DNA of 64,000 bases from assembly GCF_019649055.1 (NCBI RefSeq), contig NW_026570251.1, positions 124,001 to 188,000 of the forward strand. Reading direction: 5' to 3'. The translations under genes and the position numbers were made by a program. Positions 23,038 to 42,132 of the stretch are shown here, one piece after another. Every line of letters starts with the position of its first letter. Position 1 is the first letter of the stretch. The notes below the pieces were generated by a model. It was not told the origin of the DNA. It saw nothing but the letters and a program-made list of their open reading frames with translations, and did not search any database. Source of the DNA: Paramacrobiotus metropolitanus (Eukaryota; Tardigrada; Eutardigrada; Parachela; Macrobiotidae).

Positions 23038-23865
23038 CTAACACAAAAAAACTCGGATTTTTTGAATCACCACAGTTCTGCAAACAGGACACTGTATCAA
23101 TCTATCTGAACAGTTATTGCAGCAGGCCAGATGATTACATGGGCGGAATACAACTTGGACTTCATTGTCTAAGCAGACCTTACATTGCACTTTCTCCAGG
23201 GGGTTATTTTCTCTTTTCCTTGCCGCATACGCTTGAGATACCTTGTCACAGGTCTGCGCTGATTCCTTTGCTTGCTTGGTCTGAACGTCGTAGACATACT
23301 GTTCTCCTTTTTGTGCTATGACAAATGGACATATGGGCGACGCTCTGGCGTGCTCTTCCCATGCTCCATCGGTGGGAACCCATCTTTCAAGCTCTCGTCC
23401 GCAGTGAAAGCACTGGACGCAATCACCGTTCCCGTTATGAAACCAACCGGCTTGGGCCATGACCCTGGGATGCTGAGCTTTTGATTCAGGCCACTCGGCA
23501 AATGTAGAAAAACGAGCCTTGTAATCCATCATGTCTGGAAAGCGCACAGCGTAGCTATAGGTCCCCGGAATAGCAACTGGCGCTGACGCCCACACCTCCA
23601 CGACGTCTTCTCCTTCCGCAGTAATGGGTTCAGGTGTTCTCTTTGACATTGGACAGTTTGGAAACAGTAATTGATGATGCCGCCTTGGGCTTCGGATTTT
23701 ACCCCATCCGGACATAATACCGTCACAATATGCGCACTGAACTTCATCCCCGGTTCCACGATAAAACATTCCGGCTAAGGCCAAGTACGTCGGTGGAAGT
23801 AAACTATTGTCCCAATTGGTGTGTTTAAACGTAGCCAGACGATGGATCACATTACGCATGTCCAT
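23038..23865 (-). CDS. Inhibitor-of-apoptosis protein, BIR-BIR-RING
   Basis: A 275-residue single-exon frame. BIR1 (about 9-75) has C-A-Y-C and H-x6-C zinc ligands. BIR2 (about 117-183) has the stronger consensus (AGWFHNGNGDCVQCFHCG, then H-x6-C). A C-terminal RING (about 226-264) runs from CKVCLDNE to CPVCRT. The length and domain order equal those of baculovirus-type IAPs and of short animal IAPs. Family role: binding caspases or IAP antagonists and ubiquitin ligase activity. It lacks introns and is divergently oriented from the next virus-like gene across a shared promoter region, so it probably belongs to the element. All key zinc ligands are present and the frame is open. Confidence 0.9.
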   Translation of the reverse strand: MDMRNVIHRLATFKHTNWDNSLLPPTYLALAGMFYRGTGDEVQCAYCDGIMSGWGKIRSPRRHHQLLFPNCPMSKRTPEPITAEGEDVVEVWASAPVAIPGTYSYAVRFPDMMDYKARFSTFAEWPESKAQHPRVMAQAGWFHNGNGDCVQCFHCGRELERWVPTDGAWEEHARASPICPFVIAQKGEQYVYDVQTKQAKESAQTCDKVSQAYAARKRENNPLEKVQCKVCLDNEVQVVFRPCNHLACCNNCSDRLIQCPVCRTVVIQKIRVFLC

Positions 23866-24284
23866 TTTTGCTGTTTAATGACAGAAAAACTGAATCAATA
23901 AAAGCCTGTTTCTAAAACCGAAATCTAAATTTTGCTTGACCATCATAGTTTATATATAATACCAATAAGGACGAAGCTTCCCAAGTCTCCGCCTTTTACA
24001 CCTTCTAACAAGGCTTGCAGGGGAAAAAAGGCGGAGCAAAATTATCGATTTTTCAGCCAATCGCTACAGTCTTGTGTTGGGAAAAGTTTGACCAATGGAA
24101 ACCATTGCTTTCCATAAAAAGGCGGAGTTTTGGAGGATTTTATGCGAATCAAAATCCAACACTTTGCAGTCGCTGTAGTCGTGAGGATATAAAAGGCTAG
24201 CGGGTAAACCTTGAATTGTCAGTTGCTTTTCAGTTCCGTAAGAAAAATTGTTTGCTACTTGTTAGTCGCTTTTGCAATCAAAAA
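23866..24284. promoter_or_regulatory. Divergent promoter region between IAP and the first right-hand gene
   Basis: It has a TATATAAT-type box near 23949-23959 for the minus-strand IAP gene and TATAAAAGG at 24188-24196 for the plus-strand gene. Between them are CTCCGCC or GGCGGAG (GC-box-like) at about 23988, 24026 and 24119, and CCAAT at about 24057 and 24091. The spacing from TATAAAAGG puts transcription start near 24220, which makes the ATG at 24285 the likely start. Confidence 0.6.
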
Positions 24285-24743
24285 ATGGATTTTGCACGCA
24301 CTTTGGAGATTTTGGGAGAGCTGAACGGATACATCATCTATAAGGTCAACAATGTGGTAAGTATGTTTTGGAACACGAAAAAGGTCAGTCTTGTTCTAGC
24401 TTTTGATCAGGAAACAGACGGTTACAAAGATCATGAAGAGGCGTTCCGGAAAGGAGTGCGTCTGGGATGTAGTGAAATTTCGGACGTCCTGAATAAGTTG
24501 AAAGCGGGAACTATCCAAGCAGCGATGGACAAGGCAATCACAAGCAAATCTGCGGAAAAGGTCACTCTTGCCGGACCTGCTTGTATGGATGTACTTCTCA
24601 GTATCCATCCTAAATATGGGCGGATGATCCGCTTTTCACAACCCGGGCACTCTTTACAGATTCCATACCGAGGATTTTTGGATGTAGCTCGCATTGTACA
24701 GGACAGCTTCTGGGGTCCTGAGGGAGTGTCCATGGATACGTAG
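24285..24743 (+). CDS. Possible PC4-like (ssDNA-binding coactivator) protein
   Basis: 152 residues. An earlier in-frame ATG at 24216 lies at or before the predicted transcription start, so 24285 is preferred. Residues about 27-69 have a strand-strand-strand-helix pattern with KKVSLVLAFD and RKGVRLGCSEISDVLNKL, which recalls the KGISL segment and helix of PC4/p15. A weaker second half (about 103-140) may repeat the pattern. PC4 is a TBP/TFIIA-linked coactivator that binds single-stranded DNA, so the place next to a TBP gene is suggestive. The match is short; the protein may be an unrelated early gene. The frame is intact. Confidence 0.35.
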   Translation: MDFARTLEILGELNGYIIYKVNNVVSMFWNTKKVSLVLAFDQETDGYKDHEEAFRKGVRLGCSEISDVLNKLKAGTIQAAMDKAITSKSAEKVTLAGPACMDVLLSIHPKYGRMIRFSQPGHSLQIPYRGFLDVARIVQDSFWGPEGVSMDT

Positions 24744-24913
24744 GCTAACAGCATTTGACTTGTGTAACATAATGCACTATTTCGATTTACTATGTTTTGG
24801 TCTTTTACTAATGACAATCTACAGCTTTGTCTGGGATACTTTTAGGTAGCAAAAGAAAATTAAATAGGATAAAAAAAAGGGCTAATGCCTCTATTCGCGA
24901 CAGACTGAGTAAG

Positions 24914-24965
24914 AAACGTATATAAAGAATTCGTGCTCATTCTGTCGCGATTAGTGTGTTCAGCC
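24914..24965 (+). promoter_or_regulatory. TATA promoter of the TBP-like gene
   Basis: GTATATAAAG at 24918-24927, with start of transcription expected near 24950. The ATG at 24966 is in a good context (GCCATGG). An upstream in-frame start at 24933 would lie before the expected transcript start, so it is not chosen. Confidence 0.55.
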
Positions 24966-25514
24966 ATGGAGATACACAACGTTATTTTGTCCGTCAGGTT
25001 TGACAGAAGGATCGACTTGGACGCGATAACCCGTGTTTTCGGGAACGATGCTACTAAGATGAAAAACTTTAACGCCGTTAACCTTCGCTTGAATGGTAAC
25101 ACATTCTGTCAACTGTTTGCGAACGGCAAGGCCATCATAAACGGCGGTAAGTCAGTTGATGAAGCGGAGCAACTGCTGCTCTTTTATAAGCTGATGTTAC
25201 TTCTGCATGATTTTACTTTGGAGATTAAGGTACGTAGTATAGCAAATATCGTAAGCACTTACCGTCATAGTACAAAAGTCAATCTTGCCAATTTATACAA
25301 TAAAAGCAGAACAATACCGGAAGTAAGTAAGGCATTTTTTGAGCCTGAACTATTTCCAGCAGTTCAGATTAAATTTAAGTATTTAGGAGCCACAGTTAAC
25401 GTGTTTCATACGGGTAACTGCGTTCTTTTAGGATGTACATCCGTTGTACAAGTGCAGGCAGTTGCAGAAGCGATAAAAAACCTCCTGCAGTTAATTAACC
25501 AAAACTCCCAGTAA
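24966..25514 (+). CDS. TATA-box-binding-protein homologue, virus-like
   Basis: 182 residues, the size of a bare TBP core with no N-terminal extension. Two direct repeats are visible: about 1-85 (HNVILSVRF, FNAVNLRL, ANGKAIINGGKS) and about 90-177 (IANIVSTY, FFEPELFPAVQIKF, HTGNCVLLGCTS, then a helix). The ELFP motif after a phenylalanine and the F-x-SGK-x-x-x-TGAKS-like strand-turn in each half are hallmarks of the TBP saddle. TBP bends TATA DNA and seats TFIIB and RNA polymerase II or III. Some DNA-contact phenylalanines seem replaced (NVF, QLF), so binding preference could differ. The frame is intact. The position inside a Polinton-like gene block argues that it is an element gene, not the host TBP. 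Confidence 0.8.
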   Translation: MEIHNVILSVRFDRRIDLDAITRVFGNDATKMKNFNAVNLRLNGNTFCQLFANGKAIINGGKSVDEAEQLLLFYKLMLLLHDFTLEIKVRSIANIVSTYRHSTKVNLANLYNKSRTIPEVSKAFFEPELFPAVQIKFKYLGATVNVFHTGNCVLLGCTSVVQVQAVAEAIKNLLQLINQNSQ

Positions 25515-25618
25515 TCATAAAATTTTAGACTTTTCAACGGAAAATTTTCGGAATTTTTGCGGATTTTACAGGTGTGCTGAACTAGGGGCTTAAGGTCGAA
25601 TTATCTGAGGTTTTAGAA

Positions 25619-26145
25619 ATGGAAAAAATCACTTTTGATTTTCGTTTTAAAACTCCTTGCACGATTTACATTTCAGGACCAACAATGTCTGGGAAATCAA
25701 CGTTTACGTTGCAACTCTTGAAAAACGTTTCACAAAGTTTCACTCCCGTCCCTACTCGTATTGTTTACGCGTACGGTACGTGGCAAGAAACCTTTTCAAC
25801 TTTTGACGAATCTATTGAACTTGTACAAGGCATTGATTCCATTATTAATGACGAAAGCTTTTTCAGAAAAGGTGATACAACGCTGCTAATTTTGGATGAT
25901 TTAATGGAGGAAATAGCATCTGCTACTAAGGCATCCGCGTTATTTACCCGTGATGTTCACCACAAAACGTTTCTGTTGTTTTCATCTCACAAAACCTTTT
26001 CAAGCAAGGAAAGAACATGCGTGATATTTCTCTCAACTCACAATATATGGTCGTATTTAAATCTGTTCGCGACACACAGCAAATAAAAACGCTAGCGCAT
26101 CAGCTGGGCATGCCACACTTGCCAGAAGCTTATAAAAGGCTATAA
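25619..26145 (+). pseudogene. Genome-packaging ATPase (HerA/FtsK-type), one frameshift
   Basis: Walker A (GPTMSGKST) lies at about residues 20-28 and Walker B (LLILDDLM) at about 93-100, followed by the expected sensor region. This is the P-loop ATPase that fills capsids in Polintons, adenovirus-like and related viruses. The first frame stops at 26086; the family-like reading leaves it at about 25,980 and continues in another frame to 26145. So the gene has one indel, by mutation or assembly. It follows the TBP-like gene by about 100 nt on the same strand. Confidence 0.8.
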
Positions 26146-26248
26146 AGGAACCGTTTGGATACTTATTAATTAACTTACGTCCGGAAACCCCCGACAAGGC
26201 CCGCTTACAATCGAATATTTTTGGCTACCGAAGAATCTATGTAGAAAA

Positions 26249-26569
26249 ATGAAGCCAGAAGAAATTCTCAAGCTAATCGACGCTCTACGTTTGATGACAC
26301 CCAGACAGCAGAGAGCGTTTTTTCAATTTTCTACTACTAAACAGGTCGCTGCAATTGAAGAAGCCTGCTTGAACCTTATTAAGCAACCAAAGGGGTTAAG
26401 TAAAACACATTTAGCGAAAGCACGTGCTCATGTTGGAAAAATAAAGCGACTAGCTAATCGGAATTTAACGCGTGAAAAAAAGAAAATGCTTTTACAGCAA
26501 AAAGGTGGATTTTTAAGAGTTCTTCTACCAGTTTTGGGAACTCTTTTAACATCGTTCCTAACAAAATGA
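26249..26569 (+). CDS. Small basic protein with hydrophobic C-terminus
   Basis: 106 residues. The N-terminal half is helical, the middle is Lys/Arg-rich (about 58-88), and the end is QKGGFLRVLLPVLGTLLTSFL. A QKGGFL-type tail is a feature I associate with a small conserved protein in Polinton-like and related elements, possibly a minor virion or membrane-active protein. The stop overlaps the next start as ATGA (26566-26569), typical of compact viral gene blocks. The frame is intact. Confidence 0.6.
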   Translation: MKPEEILKLIDALRLMTPRQQRAFFQFSTTKQVAAIEEACLNLIKQPKGLSKTHLAKARAHVGKIKRLANRNLTREKKKMLLQQKGGFLRVLLPVLGTLLTSFLTK

Positions 26570-27632
26570 AGACTTACGTGTTAGTACCGGAATCAGAATT
26601 CGTAAGTGGCAAAAATAGGTCAGGTCCAACATCTACTTGGAAAAGGGCCCAAGAAATTAGCGATAACATGAATCAGCAGCTAATGGTGCGAGCCGCCTTG
26701 GAGAACCAACGTCCGGTTACGCGCCTGCCGGTTAGCGAGACACCAAACTATACCATAGAAAGCAATACCTTGCCATCGGAACTTTTGCATAAGCCAGCAA
26801 CCGTGTCAAAATACGTTGAGGCAAAGCCGCTAATGCAAGATGCATTTTTCAAACCGGACCTTTGCTTGAGAGCCGTGGTATCCAGGTTAGTACAGCAACA
26901 AATGACCAGCAAATTCAAGCAAATTCGTCACCCCAAATTGAGTACGTACAGTCCGAGCCGTTGGTGCATTACGTACAAGTGCCCGCGGACCCAATCGTGC
27001 ACTATGTTCCTACAACCGTGCCGAGCGAACCTGTTGTCCACTATGTTCCAACCCCTTCGAAAACTTTAGTCAAACACGTATACAAATCCCCAAAAGTCCC
27101 ACCAATAACTAAAAAGCGTGGTGTTCCAAAAACTTCCCGTAACACCATGCCGAAGAAGAACCAGGCGCCAACTATAGAGTTTGCACCGACACCACCAAGC
27201 ATACAAGATGCACCGCAAGAATCACCAATTGTTGAGTTTCCTCCTGACGGAGTTCTGGATTACGAACCCCATGAAAATCCAGCACTACCGTCAAATATAA
27301 ATGCAAAGGCACTTAATTATCAACCAAATGAAGTCTCACTGCGACGAAGTACACGTAAAAATTCAGCGTTACCGTATGCTGGTACGCGACTAGCCATCGA
27401 GGGACCTTCCACCAGCTTACAGGTTTTAGGTAAGGCGTTGGCTCCAATTAAAACCGCGGTGCGTCGTAAGACTCGCGATAAAACTGCTCTGTTGCCGACG
27501 TCTACGCAACTGTCTGTTGAAAATGCCTTAACTGTTCCGGGGCTAACGGGCCCGTCGGCACCCATGCCAATTGAAGCAGCGCATAGAAAAGCTATAACAT
27601 ACAACCCACAGCCTGCGAAAACAAAAAAATAA
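26566..27632 (+). pseudogene. Element protein with VHYVP repeats, one frameshift
   Basis: The first frame (26566-27069) looks family-like only up to about 26,870. The second frame (open from about 26,862 to 27632) carries on with a low-complexity region holding four VHYVP-like units (about 26,960-27,080), then a Pro/Lys-rich tail. Together this is one gene of about 355 codons with a single indel. The location between the small tail protein and the integrase suggests a virion-associated protein; no enzyme motif is seen. Confidence 0.55.
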
Positions 27633-27777
27633 TGTTCAGTTAAGTAGCAAAAGGATGAAGAACAAGAAACCAACACATATAGGCGGAGAATCGCTAGAGC
27701 CCCAACAAAGTTCTACGGGCCACCACGTAAAAAACAGCGTACAACACAAACTGGAGGGTGGTTAAACTTTGCTTAAA
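27633..27777 (+). other. Short interval with a basic mini-frame
   Basis: An ATG frame (27655-27762, 35 codons) and an overlapping frame without ATG that encodes a Lys/Arg-rich stretch (PPRKKQRTTQTGGW). Basic mini-proteins occur in related viruses as core peptides, but no start supports this one. Confidence 0.25.
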
Positions 27778-28828
27778 ATGGTAACACTAGATGAAATTTA
27801 CCTGGATGCCGGGAACCCCGGTAGCCTTGGAGGAGTTGAGCGTCTGTTTAAAGAAGCTCAAAACATAATTATACACGTCAGCAAGTTGAACAATACTTAC
27901 AGTCTAAGGACGCGTATACACAACATAAAGCATACCGCTCAAAAGTTTAAGCGAAGAAAAATTATATCAGTAAATGTAGGAGACCAACACCAAATTGACT
28001 TGATGGATATGCAAAAGTTTCGTAAAGAAAACGATGGTTTTAATTACGTGCTGACGTGTGTTGATTGTTTCTCCAGATATGGTTGGGCGGAGCCAGTGAA
28101 GTCAAAAAAGCCGCCAGAAATTGCTGCAGCGCTCAGCACAATTTACAAACAATGCAGTCCGCCACTGCGCTGTCAAAGTGATAACGGTAAAGAATTTGTT
28201 GGAAGAGAAATGCGTGCATTTTTTAAAGAATGTAATGTAACCTTTTTTACTACTCGAAATGATGATGTAAAATGCGCAATGGTAGAACGACTCAATCGTA
28301 CCATTAAAAACCGTATGTACGTATACATGACTGAAAAAAACACATATCGATACATAGACGTTTTGCCACAGATAATGCAAGGGTATAATAGCACTGTGCA
28401 TTCTTCAACCGGTTATGCTCCAGAAAACGTTGGAGTAAACGAGAGCAACTCTATCCTTGAACGTATGCTCAGCGAACAAAAGAAATCAAAGGGGCCCGCA
28501 TTTACAGCTGGCGACCATGTGCGAATTGCCAAAAGAAAAACACGTTCGAAAAGGTTACGAAACAAATTACACGGAAGAAATTTTTAAAGTAGTCAGAGTT
28601 TTAAAACATAAAAGCCATTTTTTGTATGCTATCGAAGACCTAGCTGGTGAAGCAATCGACGGACACTTCTATGCTTCCGAACTGTCAAAATTTGTAATGA
28701 CTGAGAGGCCATACCATCGCATTTCTAGGATATTAAGGAGCGCACACACAAGGGTAAAAAACAATATCTGGTACATTGGTATGGCTACGGCCCCGCGTAT
28801 GACTCTTGGGAAAACGCAAACGAATTAA
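27778..28828 (+). pseudogene. Polinton-type integrase (rve family), one frameshift
   Basis: Catalytic D, D and E are visible in QIDLMDM, CQSDNGKEF and AMVERLNRTIK, with the usual spacing of a retroviral-type integrase core. The C-terminal DNA-binding part (chromo/SH3-like, FKVVRVLKHKSHFLYAIEDL) lies in a different frame: the first frame ends at 28587 and the other runs to 28828, so one indel lies at about 28,540-28,560, near A-runs. The enzyme inserts element DNA into the host genome. Confidence 0.85.
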
Positions 28829-28829
28829 A

Positions 28830-29570
28830 ATGAGTTTTACTTGACACTGCCATCTTCGGCGTCTCGTGATTTGTATCCAAAAAACTGTCCCGGACATTTC
28901 ACAACTTTATTAGCCAGGGCAGTGGATCTGGACGGTACCTGGGAAGTTGCGTTATCAGAATTAATACTTCCTCCTATGCAGTTAAAATTTAATAGCGGCT
29001 TAGTGGTTGGTATTGCGCGAACTAATTATCCCACTCGGGAGACTCGTTTTTAAGTGAAAAGCATATCCGGACGAAAACCGGTTAATACACGCTGTTAATG
29101 TGCTTTTGCGTGATGGCGCGACGGATGATGAACCAGTTTTATATGGTCATATCGTAGTCAGTGGTAACTCCTCTGAACTAAGTATCAGACCAGACACCAC
29201 CCTGACGTTCCACGGTGCAGAGTATACCCGTGCTTTGGGTTTGCTGCAAGACTACAGTTATACGGGCAGTGATAGCCCTACTTATGTCCTCCACCCGGGG
29301 AAACATAATCGCATTGTACACGTCTACTGTGACATCATTGAATACGGTCTAGTGGGGGATGCTATGGTTCCTTTGTTGCGCACGATATCAACGCAAGCGA
29401 GCTCGTTTGAAGAAACGTGCATCCGTTTTGAAAGCCCTCACTACGTACCTATAGCCCGTCATACGTTCCAAACAGTTGAAATTAAAGTATGCGATGATTT
29501 AGATAATGAAGTGTTTTTCCATCCAGGTACTGCAATAATCAAACTACACTTCCGACTGAAAAAACACTAA
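28830..29570 (+). pseudogene. Penton (minor capsid, single jelly roll), frameshifted
   Basis: A start ATG at 28830 is followed by a family-like N-terminus in a second frame (28841-29053: TLPSSAS, then LARAVDLDGTWEVALSELILPP, a strong match to Polinton/virophage pentons). The rest is in a third stretch, open from about 29,060 to 29570. There are thus two indels, one right after the start and one at a T-run near 29,046. Pentons fill the vertices of the capsid. Confidence 0.75.
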
Positions 29571-29572
29571 AA

Positions 29573-29889
29573 ATGGTACTCCAAGAACTTAAATTCGATG
29601 AATCTCGCTACATTCAAATATTCAATCGTCAGCACGGTTACGGAATGCCCGTTTACCGCGGTGCACCAATGACGGGTGGCAGCTTTTGGGGTCGCATCAT
29701 AGGATTTGCGCGGGGTTGTTTAGTAAGGCTGCACCTCACATCAACAACATGATTGCTACCGCCCAACCACACATGAAGACATTTGCCTCGAAAGCGGTAG
29801 AATCAGCCATCGATAAAGCTGTCGAGCACGTCAGTGAAAAATACGTCAACAAAGCGGCTCAGGCATTAAGGGACGAAAGAAAAAAATAG
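29573..29889 (+). pseudogene. pVI/pX-like minor virion protein, one frameshift
   Basis: About 105 codons starting at 29573, with YGMPVYRGAPMTGGSFWG early and an amphipathic Lys/Ala-rich helical tail. This layout recalls the membrane-lytic pVI-type protein of adenovirus-like and Polinton elements. The frame changes near 29,710. It lies 2 nt after the penton stop. Confidence 0.6.
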
Positions 29890-29944
29890 TCAGCATTAGT
29901 AAGAAGCAACGAGCAATTGACGCGATAAAAGACAAACTGTAGCA

Positions 29945-31287
29945 ATGGCGCTTATAGAAAACGGCTCAGAGCCATCAATGTTGTTAGAGAGTCACTTATT
30001 CTACTTACCTTCAACACTAACGGAACGATGGAATACCAGAGATTATTATTTGGGGCCCTCACAAGCCACGACCGACGAATCCAATGATTTTTCATTTACT
30101 GTAGCTCCATGTCAGTCGGAATTGGTTAGCTTAGCCGATATTCGATTTACGTGCGATCTTCACGATACTAATGCAGCTGGAACCATACCAACGGATAGCG
30201 ACTGTTTGGCCCCTATTAACAACATTGTACACAGTCTTTTCGAGCAAGTTAGTGTTACTCTAGGCGGTCGCAGTATATCGGACAGTAGCTCGATGTATCA
30301 CATTCGCGCTTATTTGGAGAGCCTTTTGGGTTATACAAAACAAGCGCAGCTAACCCAACAAAGTCTGGGTGGGTTCGCTATGGACACTGAAATGTCCAAA
30401 GATCCGATTTTCACAGAGAAAGTAGACGGAAAATCATCTTTCCATAGTGAAGGTGCTGAAAAAGGCGAAAGTGGATACAAACATTGAAGCCACTCCAGTT
30501 GTCAGGCAAGTTGCACTGCGACTTGTTTCAGCAGGATCGCCCACTTATACCAGGCGTAGAGTTAAGCATCAAACTGATTCGTAACCGAAAGAATCTAGCG
30601 TTTATTGCCGATAGCGACCTGGCAGCACCTAAAGTTGTAGCGATTCGAATCCCCGATTGCGTATACGCAAATACGAACCAGCTCCGGATTATCTTGCCGC
30701 AATGACAAAGCAACTGGTTGGCAATAATGCAAAATATCACGTTGAACGCGTTGCGATGCGGCAGTGTACTCTGATATCTGGTCAGCAACAACACGTGTGG
30801 GCGAATATCGTGATTGGACAGCTCCCAAAGGTAATGTTCCTAGCCCTATCACCCAGTCGTTCTTTGCTGGGGAATACAAGTCAACTCCCTTTAATTTCGA
30901 TCATTTTAACCTGTCTTATGTCCATGCCGAGATCGACGGCCAGCTGTTTCCCACTCGAGGATACAATTTAGATTATGAAAACGGGGCCACAGCCGAGGCC
31001 TACGAAGGACTTTTAGACACACTGGAGCGTTTAGGAGAAGGTCCGGGCGAGCTACCCTTTGATCGTTCGGATTATAATGCTGGTGGCTTTTGTATTTACG
31101 GCTTTGACTTCACTCGCGGACATACTGGCCGCGGGCTCTTTCTCTAATTAGGCAAGGCAATCTTAACATTAATTTTAAATTTGCCAAAGCTTTAAAGGAA
31201 GGAGTGGTGTGTGTTGCAATGTTAGTCTTTGACAACGTTATCGAAATAAATAACAACAGACAGGTTTTGTTTGATTTTGCTCCATGA
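29945..31287 (+). pseudogene. Major capsid protein (double jelly roll), several frameshifts
   Basis: About 445 codons when the pieces are read in their best frames: 29945-30487, 30484-30705, about 30,700-31,140, and about 31,140 to the stop at 31287. Motifs such as FTVAPCQSELVSLADIRF, LFEQVSVTLGG and FGFDF-like strands (YGFDFT) match Polinton hexon-type capsid proteins. At least three indels break it. The stop overlaps the protease start as ATGA. Confidence 0.75.
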
Positions 31288-31796
31288 ACAGTATAGAAAT
31301 CGACAATGCCCTTAGAAGGGATCCAATAGTTCGTGATATTTTTGTTGGAGTCTTTCCTTGTGATAAAATTCCTGACAAAGAATTTCCGGGTGCCTACATC
31401 GTGAATACGCAACCTAGCACTGCCTCGGGAGAGCACTGGGTCGCATTTTACTGCACTAAACCCGGTACAGTGGAAGCCTTTGACTCGTTTGGACGAAACC
31501 CAGCAGAGTATTCTCTACACATCAAAGACTGGATAGGTCAAGACTACATTACCATGTCAAATACGATGCGACAAAGCATAGATTCTACAGTCTGTGGTCA
31601 GTACTGTATGTTTTACGTACTTCTACGTTGTCGAGGGTATTCCTATGAAGATGTTATGTCCGCCTTAACCAAGCATAAAGGCGTGAATGACAAATTTATT
31701 CGAAAATTTATAAACAAGTACTTTAACCTGCACACTGCGCTACGAGACGATAATTTTATAAGGCAACTAATAAAATGGATAGACCCCAAAAAATAG
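31284..31796 (+). CDS. Adenain-type cysteine protease (C5/Ulp1-like)
   Basis: 170 residues, intact. The catalytic set is visible in order: His in EHWVAFY, Asp/Glu in EAFDSFG, Gln-Cys region in STVCGQYCMFYVLL. In Polintons and adenoviruses it matures virion proteins. The start overlaps the capsid stop by ATGA. Confidence 0.85.
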   Translation: MNSIEIDNALRRDPIVRDIFVGVFPCDKIPDKEFPGAYIVNTQPSTASGEHWVAFYCTKPGTVEAFDSFGRNPAEYSLHIKDWIGQDYITMSNTMRQSIDSTVCGQYCMFYVLLRCRGYSYEDVMSALTKHKGVNDKFIRKFINKYFNLHTALRDDNFIRQLIKWIDPKK

Positions 31797-35032: not shown

Positions 35033-35694
35033 ATGCCGCACGGTCGCGTAGCGAAAAAAACTAGAGGTAGAGCCCTCTCCCGCTCCAGGCGAGCCGGTGC
35101 AATACTGCCGGTTGGCCGTATTCACCAGGCTATGATTCAGGGTAGCCAAACTGAAGAATCCGCATCTGTATTCATGGCCGGCGTTCTAGAGTATTTGGTT
35201 GCCGAACTCCTGTTCCTTGCTGGAAACGTGGCAGAAGTTGCACGTGCCACCGACATCAAGCCGGGTCACATTGATCAAGCCATTCGTGACGATCCGGAGG
35301 TAGGTTTTGTAAATACATATGCTACTTGCTTATTACGGTCGCATAAATATTATCATTACACCCTTATTAAAATTATCATTAAATATCATAAATATAATAT
35401 TATAAAATTTGTAATTATAATATTTAATATTATCATACTCCCTTATTAAATATTACAAATATTATCATACACCCTTATTAAATCCGGCAATTATTATTAT
35501 CTACAGGTACTGCAAGTCATGCTGGTATGCGACAACGCAAAAGCTATCTAAAATATTTATAACGCTCATATCTGTATAGACCTATTTGTTGATATTACGT
35601 ATATGAAATCATAATAATACTTTCTTCTTCGCAGTTTACAACGCTCTTGTGGGGTGTGCTCCTGGGATGGTGCGATCGCCATAACCGCCGCTAA
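35033..35694 (+). CDS. Short divergent histone H2A variant, two exons
   Basis: Exon 1 (35033-35299) and exon 2 (35635-35694) join in phase 0 (GAG|GTAGGT, TTCTTCGCAG|TTT) to 108 residues. The H2A fold is clear: RSRRAGAILPVGRIHQ, VFMAGVLEYLVAELLFLAGN, IKPGHIDQAIRDDPE. It is shorter than canonical H2A. The ELAG position has Phe (LLFLAG), so one acidic-patch glutamate is lost, and the docking tail (FTTLLWGVLLGW) has no lysine-rich end. These are features of short H2A variants that loosen nucleosomes; the function here is inferred. The intron has AT-rich repeats of TATTATCATACACCCTTATTAAA (about 35,349-35,482). Confidence 0.85.
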
Positions 35695-41459: not shown

Positions 41460-41462
41460 TAA

Positions 41463-42108
41463 CGAGGGAGATACCCGAACACGTCCGCGTCAGATCAGCA
41501 TACACTTGGTACCATCAGAATCCTTAGAATTTCAGCTATTTTCTTCGAGAATCAAAACACCCCCAGATGAAGAACTCGAGTTTAGTGATCTCTGAGAAGC
41601 CAGCATAGATATGATGGCTGACTTCCATCGAAACGTCAGCAGGCGCCATACGCAATGTCCAGCCTAGCTACGCCATGCGCTACGAATAGTCTGGCTGCAA
41701 TCTGTAGTTTCTGTACTGGTATCTTTGACAGCTGTCTCACCTATTTTGCCCTGTCGCGCGCACCAGCATCCGCGGTTGCATTGATCTGTACGGAGCCAGT
41801 CGATGCTGATGCGCTTACAGAGTCAAAAAACTGCGATAGCTATCGATAAAGCGCTATTGAACTTGTCGCTGAAAGACGGTTGCGCAATCTCGCATCCGTA
41901 CCAAGGCGCCGTATAGCTCTGTATGGCGTCTGCTGACGTTTCGATGGAAATCAGCCATCTTACCTGTGTTGGCTTCTCAGGGATCCCTGAACTCCAGTTC
42001 TTTATCTGGGGGTATTTTGATTATCAAAGAAATAGCTGAAATTCTAAGGATTCTAATGGTACCAAGTGTATGCTGATCTGACGCGGACGTGTTCGGGTAT
42101 CTCCCTCG
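41463..42108. mobile_element. PIF/Harbinger-like MITE, 646 bp, TAA target duplication
   Basis: Arms of about 190-200 bp (41463-about 41,660 and about 41,915-42108) are imperfect reverse complements, starting CGAGGGAGATACCCGAACAC. TAA flanks both sides (41460-41462 and 42109-42111). A three-base TWA duplication is typical of PIF/Harbinger. No transposase frame. Confidence 0.8.
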
Positions 42109-42132
42109 TAACTTAGATACACACATTCAAAA

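Follow-up and report, generated by a model that had tools for sequence, protein, structure and literature searches.

Polinton/adintovirus-like elements in the genome of the tardigrade Paramacrobiotus metropolitanus carry a real and conserved family of TATA-binding proteins (TBPs), a family that is apparently unreported. TBP tells the cell at which point the reading of a gene is to begin. The data come from a stretch of 64,000 nucleotides on contig C31 (hereafter the window) and from genome-wide searches of the 169.8 Mb assembly to which it belongs. Loci in this genome are labelled with L and a number, and the TBP encoded in the window is referred to as P0001.

An intact TBP gene in a decayed element

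The element covers about positions 23038-31796 of the window and is a partial, decayed copy (Table 1). The copy is dead; the TBP frame in it is intact. The earlier note had described the setting as Polinton/adintovirus-like, which is borne out by the rve integrase, the weak ATPase and protease matches, the IAP gene and the PolB genes of sister elements, although the copy itself is partial and decayed, its integrase is broken and a search for PolB within it found none. No terminal or flanking inverted repeats were found in the segment of the window from 15000 to 45000 that surrounds the truncated copy.

Table 1. Features of the element in the window (positions within the window; lineage A is a branch of the TBP tree)
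Feature	Position	Strand	Evidence or remark
IAP-like protein with two BIR domains and a RING domain	23038..23865	-	BIR 7.9e-35, RING 2.6e-12
TATAAAA box, about 97 bp 5' of the ATG of the PUR/PC4-like gene	24188..24194	+	TATAAA in 8/10 upstream regions listed
PUR/PC4/Whirly-like gene upstream of TBP, 152 aa	24285..24743	+	Predicted fold; kept in lineage A elements
Conserved long hairpin (inverted repeat) directly 5' of the TBP start codon	24886..24958	+	Core arms 24895-24911 and 24934-24950
TATATAAA box in the hairpin loop, about 40 bp 5' of the TBP ATG	24919..24926	+	TATAWA in 16/20 TBP upstream regions listed
Element-encoded TATA-binding protein, 182 aa, two lobes, intact	24966..25514	+	ORF, Pfam, phmmer, AlphaFold2, Foldseek
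Packaging-type ATPase, broken copy	25619..26086	+	Weak AAA/Pox_A32 match (0.016); ATPase in 17/17 lineage A loci
Conserved element ORF, 106 aa, no function assigned; 4-nt overlap with the next ORF	26249..26569	+	
Element ORF, no function assigned	26566..27069	+	
Element ORF, part of a 370-aa-class gene of sister elements	27147..27632	+	
rve integrase, broken	27778..28587	+	PF00665 2.5e-12; homology continues to 28830, five stops on read-through
Presumed minor capsid/penton gene	29058..29570	+	Position only; conserved across elements; without profile match
Presumed major capsid gene, fragmented over several frames	29945..31281	+	tblastn pieces against the 444-aa ORF of L026; label from position and size only
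Adenain-like (Peptidase_C5) maturation protease	31284..31796	+	Weak Pfam match (0.0036), below cut-off

Many of the genes are intact in sister elements, among them ATPases of 209-211 aa. The ATPase of the window matches weakly and several close homologues are annotated with a precomputed PF04665 domain; the adenain-like protease homologue in L026 fell just short of the profile cut-off (4.5e-4, 20.4 bits versus 21.3). PolB (PF03175, the protein-primed type by profile) was identified in L023 (1.5e-31) and L027 (4.2e-29), and the integrase of L023 combines the rve domain with a Chromo domain (1.2e-9). The 444-aa candidate capsid protein of L026 is conserved across the elements and matched neither a profile nor a PDB sequence.

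In several places (26249-27069 in the window, L015:5267-7322 and L023:6103-9902), each element gene shares its last 4 nt or 1 nt with the gene that follows, an operon-like arrangement that is unusual for an animal genome. One element encodes an ADP-ribosylglycohydrolase fused to a BIR domain (L014:2448-3668). Beyond the recognised element, the window contains a histone-fold-like ORF (35033-35449, Pfam Histone 3.5e-6) and long inverted repeats at 41462-42109 (80 nt at 99% and 112 nt at 88%), which possibly represent another mobile element.

The TBP gene is an uninterrupted ORF of 182 codons on the plus strand, exactly as the earlier note had claimed, with the saddle motifs that it quoted. The product matched the Pfam TBP profile in two stretches (4.6e-23, 81.3 bits against a curated cut-off of 22.9) and solved TBP structures in a phmmer search (1.7e-9), and its identity to the host TBP is about 23%. 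Structure prediction, which had been proposed as a check, gave the same answer: the AlphaFold2 model, built from an alignment of 38 rows, had a mean pLDDT of 94.8 and a pTM of 0.84, the best Foldseek match was 7o4i_O (E 2.0e-13, TM 0.85), and ranks 1-44 were all TBP chains or TBP-containing complexes as judged by title. That a Polinton/adintovirus-like element encodes a TBP homologue is supported by the profile match, the fold, the surrounding genes and the many sister elements. The database protein P0003 (LOC129590691), in which a portion of the TBP frame is fused with the ATPase, is probably a gene-prediction chimera.

The gene upstream of TBP encodes a protein with a predicted two-repeat, single-strand nucleic-acid-binding fold of the PUR/PC4/Whirly type, a superfamily characterised by two beta-beta-beta-beta-alpha repeats. 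No PC4 sequence match was found for this protein, and we regard its kinship to PC4 and PUR as putative because it is the predicted fold that supports it. In an element of lineage B, the gene beside TBP contains a Pfam PC4 domain (L026:5755-6465, 1.9e-8), and at least 8 PC4-TBP pairs are present genome-wide.

Divergence from the host TBP

In a tree of 60 rows, a branch with support values of 100/98 separates 46 element-type TBPs from 14 cellular rows, 5 of which are unnamed proteins called cellular from their sequence; the host TBP falls among the cellular rows. The element-type rows include lineage A (100/99) and lineage B (86/83). Within lineage B, metagenomic rows are nested among rows from this genome on starred branches, while the order within lineage A is not fixed. 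The tree leaves out 8 of the 68 aligned rows (L008, L014, L019, L036, L044, L046, L048 and P0005), and the outgroup chosen does not form one side of a branch. Of the phylogeny suggested in the earlier note, with host and viral TBPs, the host part was carried through and sets the clade apart from the host TBP; the tree was inferred without archaeal, giant-virus (NCLDV) or herpesvirus TBPs and so does not show where the clade arose, and its topology may be subject to long-branch effects.

Since the clade of element and metagenomic TBPs is well apart from the host TBP, the window gene is not a recent retrocopy. By these comparisons, the element TBP is evidently old and not derived from the host in recent time. 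The earlier note had staked its claim on a significant TBP match and on a phylogeny that did not place the gene as a recent host retrocopy; the match is strong and the tree shows no such retrocopy.

To estimate selection on the TBP genes, we calculated dN/dS for 25 pairs picked by hand, 9 of which were saturated. All of the 16 finite values were in the range 0.05-0.44, indicative of purifying selection, with a value of 0.12 for the window TBP against L009; the upper end of the range comes from pairs with L021, a copy in decay.

Relatives were also found in metagenomic data. For 4 contigs longer than 2.5 kb (23,710, 14,236, 9,932 and 3,403 bp), TBP and ATPase matches agreed in exact size and source, compared with 0.025 expected. 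Over all lengths there were 6 same-source size matches, against 1.34 on average when the lengths were shifted, of which only the set above 2.5 kb is convincing. Scans of viral contigs with P0001, A3, P0057, the presumed capsid protein of L026, integrase A8 and the PolB of L023 yielded no match, nor did phage records. A scan with A4 gave a single weak locus, L029 (E 5e-4), which was set aside. Because the viral contig scans gave none, the support beyond this genome comes from protein matches, the metagenomic size-and-source matches and the tree.

Linkage of TBP to other genes of the elements

To examine the gene neighbourhoods, 20 loci were taken with flanks and hand-picked across identity classes, and 20 short loci were selected likewise. 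All 19 non-host TBP loci with flanks contained at least one further element gene and the host TBP locus contained none. In lineage A, the ATPase gene follows TBP in 17/17 loci and a gene of the 24285 type precedes it in 14 of the 17. The same gene in the same surroundings was what the earlier note had proposed to look for, and many sister elements in the genome indeed carry it.

Genome-wide, the union of two listings contains at least 204 TBP loci. Among the matches listed, 166/204 lie no more than 10 kb from a gene for an integrase, a presumed capsid protein or an ATPase, as compared to an expectation of 2.3%. Conversely, TBP was located within 12 kb of 163 out of 194 marker clusters among the matches listed (about 2-3% expected), and counted by marker, again among the matches listed, it lies near 74/94 presumed capsid, 103/111 integrase and 128/147 ATPase loci. 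For the other 38 of the 204 listed TBP loci, among them the host TBP, the listings give no such neighbour; since the counts are lower bounds, these loci need not be orphans. TBP belongs to the regular gene set of these elements and is no lone capture.

Residues at the DNA, TFIIB and regulator contact positions

The positions T124, T215, F99, F116, F190 and F207 are given in yeast TBP numbering. At the two DNA-contact positions T124 and T215, cellular TBPs mostly have Thr/Thr, whereas the element-type rows have Asn at the former (50/53) and Leu at the latter (49 of the 51 rows having a letter there); 0/14 cellular rows have Asn at the first position and 0/14 have Leu at the second. The four DNA-bending Phe are all present in P0001. 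Most element rows keep F99, F190 and F207, and F116 is replaced by Tyr throughout lineage B. The DNA-intercalating role of these four residues is described in PMC12529657.

Both Glu that contact TFIIB are retained in 24/24 rows of lineage A, which would be difficult to account for if the protein did not bind TFIIB. In lineage B, the first of the acidic residues is kept in 11/29 rows and the second in 26/29. A genome search for TFIIB (PF00382) yielded 6 matches at three loci, all of them on contigs for which no TBP or presumed capsid locus is listed, a search that a very divergent TFIIB could escape. Because the contact Glu are kept and the TFIIB loci lie away from the listed elements, we infer that the window-type TBP works with host TFIIB.

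The basic residues of the N-lobe helix number 0/5 in P0001 versus 5/5 in the host TBP. Three or four of the five are kept in the sublineage of L022-L025 and L048. The TBPs of this sublineage also have acidic-aromatic C-terminal tails, which resemble activation domains and are repeated several times in L025.

Promoters and hairpins

A TATAWA motif was identified upstream of TBP in all listed regions except those of L017, L025, L026 and L027. The corresponding count for regions upstream of the ATPase operon is 0/12 among those listed; in L025, the motif is present before the ATPase. Over all ORFs of at least 100 aa, TATAWA occurs upstream in 39/195 cases versus inside the ORF in 15/195.

In the core of the window-type hairpin, 7/16 pairs have double changes, and pairing amounted to 96.6% versus 85.4% in shuffled data (0/500). 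RNAalifold predicted 24 pairs, of which 11 covary. Elements of the L023-L025 type have similar strong hairpins in front of TBP or the ATPase, with compensatory changes at L023:5933-6052, L024:5821-5940 and L025:3603-3722. The hairpins of both types often lie behind an A-rich run; in the L023 type, one hairpin precedes the ATPase and a second copy precedes TBP. A search of the hairpins against Rfam gave none above the gathering score. Weak matches to miRNA precursors on the other strand (E 0.19-0.27, and 0.39-0.56 for L023) were set aside. For the TBP hairpin we tentatively favour strand pairing, as RNA or as a single strand, over an operator for a dimeric protein, because G-U steps are common to several copies.

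Discussion

We consider it fairly probable, from the conserved residues and gene arrangement, that the protein is a functional TBP of a Polinton/adintovirus-like virus family and that it guides the TFIIB and RNA polymerase II of the host to element promoters. A redirection of the host polymerase to element promoters would fit the retention of both the DNA-bending Phe and the TFIIB-contact Glu. The presence of TBP in these elements points to a small integrating virus of animals that supplies some of the machinery with which its transcription starts. The element TBP would be made early, from a TATA promoter, and would then bind and bend element promoters. It would recruit RNA polymerase II and TFIIB of the host, a viral TFIIB not having been found, and may evade Mot1, TAF1 and other regulators of the host, as the basic N-lobe patch to which they bind is gone. 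The substitutions to Asn and Leu at the two DNA-contact positions probably alter or relax the sequence preference, towards element over host promoters, and the adjoining PUR/PC4-like single-strand binder may help to open or stabilise the melted promoter.

More tentatively, and with greater doubt than confidence, we suggest that the Asn/Leu TBP and the PC4/PUR-like binder could form a compact viral initiation module that acts on host TFIIB and polymerase II and evades the regulators of TBP, in which the acidic-aromatic tail of L022-L025 and L048 may activate transcription or shield the basic patch. Polintons are about 20 kb in size, and such a module might run an early/late programme within a virus of that length.

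Other functions can be envisaged for the protein. As in the herpesviruses, early genes could be read by host TBP at canonical TATA boxes and the viral TBP could serve as a late factor that recognises a TATA-less motif before the structural operon. Besides this precedent, the idea draws on the Asn/Leu signature and on the lack of TATAWA before the listed ATPase operons, the motif being mostly present before the TBP and PUR-like genes. However, a search of short footprint alignments for a conserved late-promoter motif gave none, TATAWA does precede the ATPase in L025, and herpesvirus ORF24 reportedly lacks the TFIIB-contact Glu that the element TBP keeps, so that we hold this role to be somewhat unlikely. 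The same retained Glu and Phe residues would also suit a competitor or decoy that sits on the TATA boxes of the host or binds its TFIIB and thereby shuts host transcription down, in elements that also bear IAPs and hence host-manipulating genes. Conserved TATA boxes before element genes and a conserved PC4/PUR-like partner beside TBP fit activation better than blockade, and a decoy appears distinctly improbable.

The TBP fold is a general minor-groove binder that bends DNA, and with its gene near that of the ATPase the protein might act in replication, packaging or the choice of integration site, at TATA-rich or bent DNA of element ends or host promoters, rather than in transcription; the presence of both TFIIB-contact Glu in every lineage A row makes this very unlikely. 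Virtually no weight can be given to a recent retrocopy or paralogue of the host TBP lying by or in element debris. The gene has no introns and the host is rich in such genes, but the strongly supported clade apart from the host TBP, the low identity to it, the synteny conserved in all 17 lineage A loci and the metagenomic relatives with linked ATPases all speak against it.

The preferred reading, a TBP that activates element promoters, can be set against known systems. Like eukaryotic and archaeal TBPs, the window protein is a two-lobe saddle with four intercalating Phe and both TFIIB-contact Glu; unlike them, the element TBPs have Asn/Leu for Thr/Thr, the window type lacks the basic N-lobe patch, and the gene is carried by a mobile viral element. 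PMC7221094 describes TBPs of giant viruses (NCLDV) that are likewise virus-encoded, two-lobed and without the host-regulator patch, but in which TFIIB contacts are usually lost and a viral TFIIB is almost always present, whereas the lineage A TBPs keep both Glu and no element TFIIB was found. The vTBPs of beta- and gammaherpesviruses, exemplified by KSHV ORF24, are also virus-encoded TBP-like factors with four Phe that use host RNA polymerase II. According to PMC12529657 and PMC7498053, ORF24 is a large, multi-domain protein that makes direct contact with the Pol II CTD and works together with five further viral proteins, and the former describes it as lacking the TFIIB-contact Glu; the element TBP consists of the TBP domain alone, to which one sublineage adds acidic tails.

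The neighbouring gene resembles PC4/Sub1 and PUR-alpha through the Pfam PC4 domain in lineage B and the predicted PUR-like fold in the window, where it differs from them in having no sequence-level match. Similarity to Polintons/Mavericks and adintoviruses resides in PolB, the rve integrase with its chromodomain and, by weak profile matches, the putative A32-like ATPase and adenain-like protease, but unlike the known members these elements carry TBP together with a PUR/PC4-like or PC4 gene. We found no report of a TBP in a Polinton or adintovirus in the open-access literature, in agreement with the earlier note, which knew of none. The papers in that literature that mention both Polintons and TBP are a vertebrate review and two articles on giant viruses, and TBP terms are absent from the main text of PMC11071296 and PMC10120064; the family is likely absent from print.

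Virus-encoded TBPs were already known from giant viruses and herpesviruses. With a whole TBP clade in Polinton-class elements, even the smallest class of DNA viruses that integrate into animal genomes would have a general transcription factor, and so would a lineage commonly put close to the root of several groups of large DNA viruses. Because the host TFIIB contacts are kept and no viral TFIIB was found, the element TBP would make it easy to test to what extent TBP can redirect polymerase II by itself, and the many diverged copies in the tardigrade genome offer a natural series on shifting DNA preference and the loss of host control.
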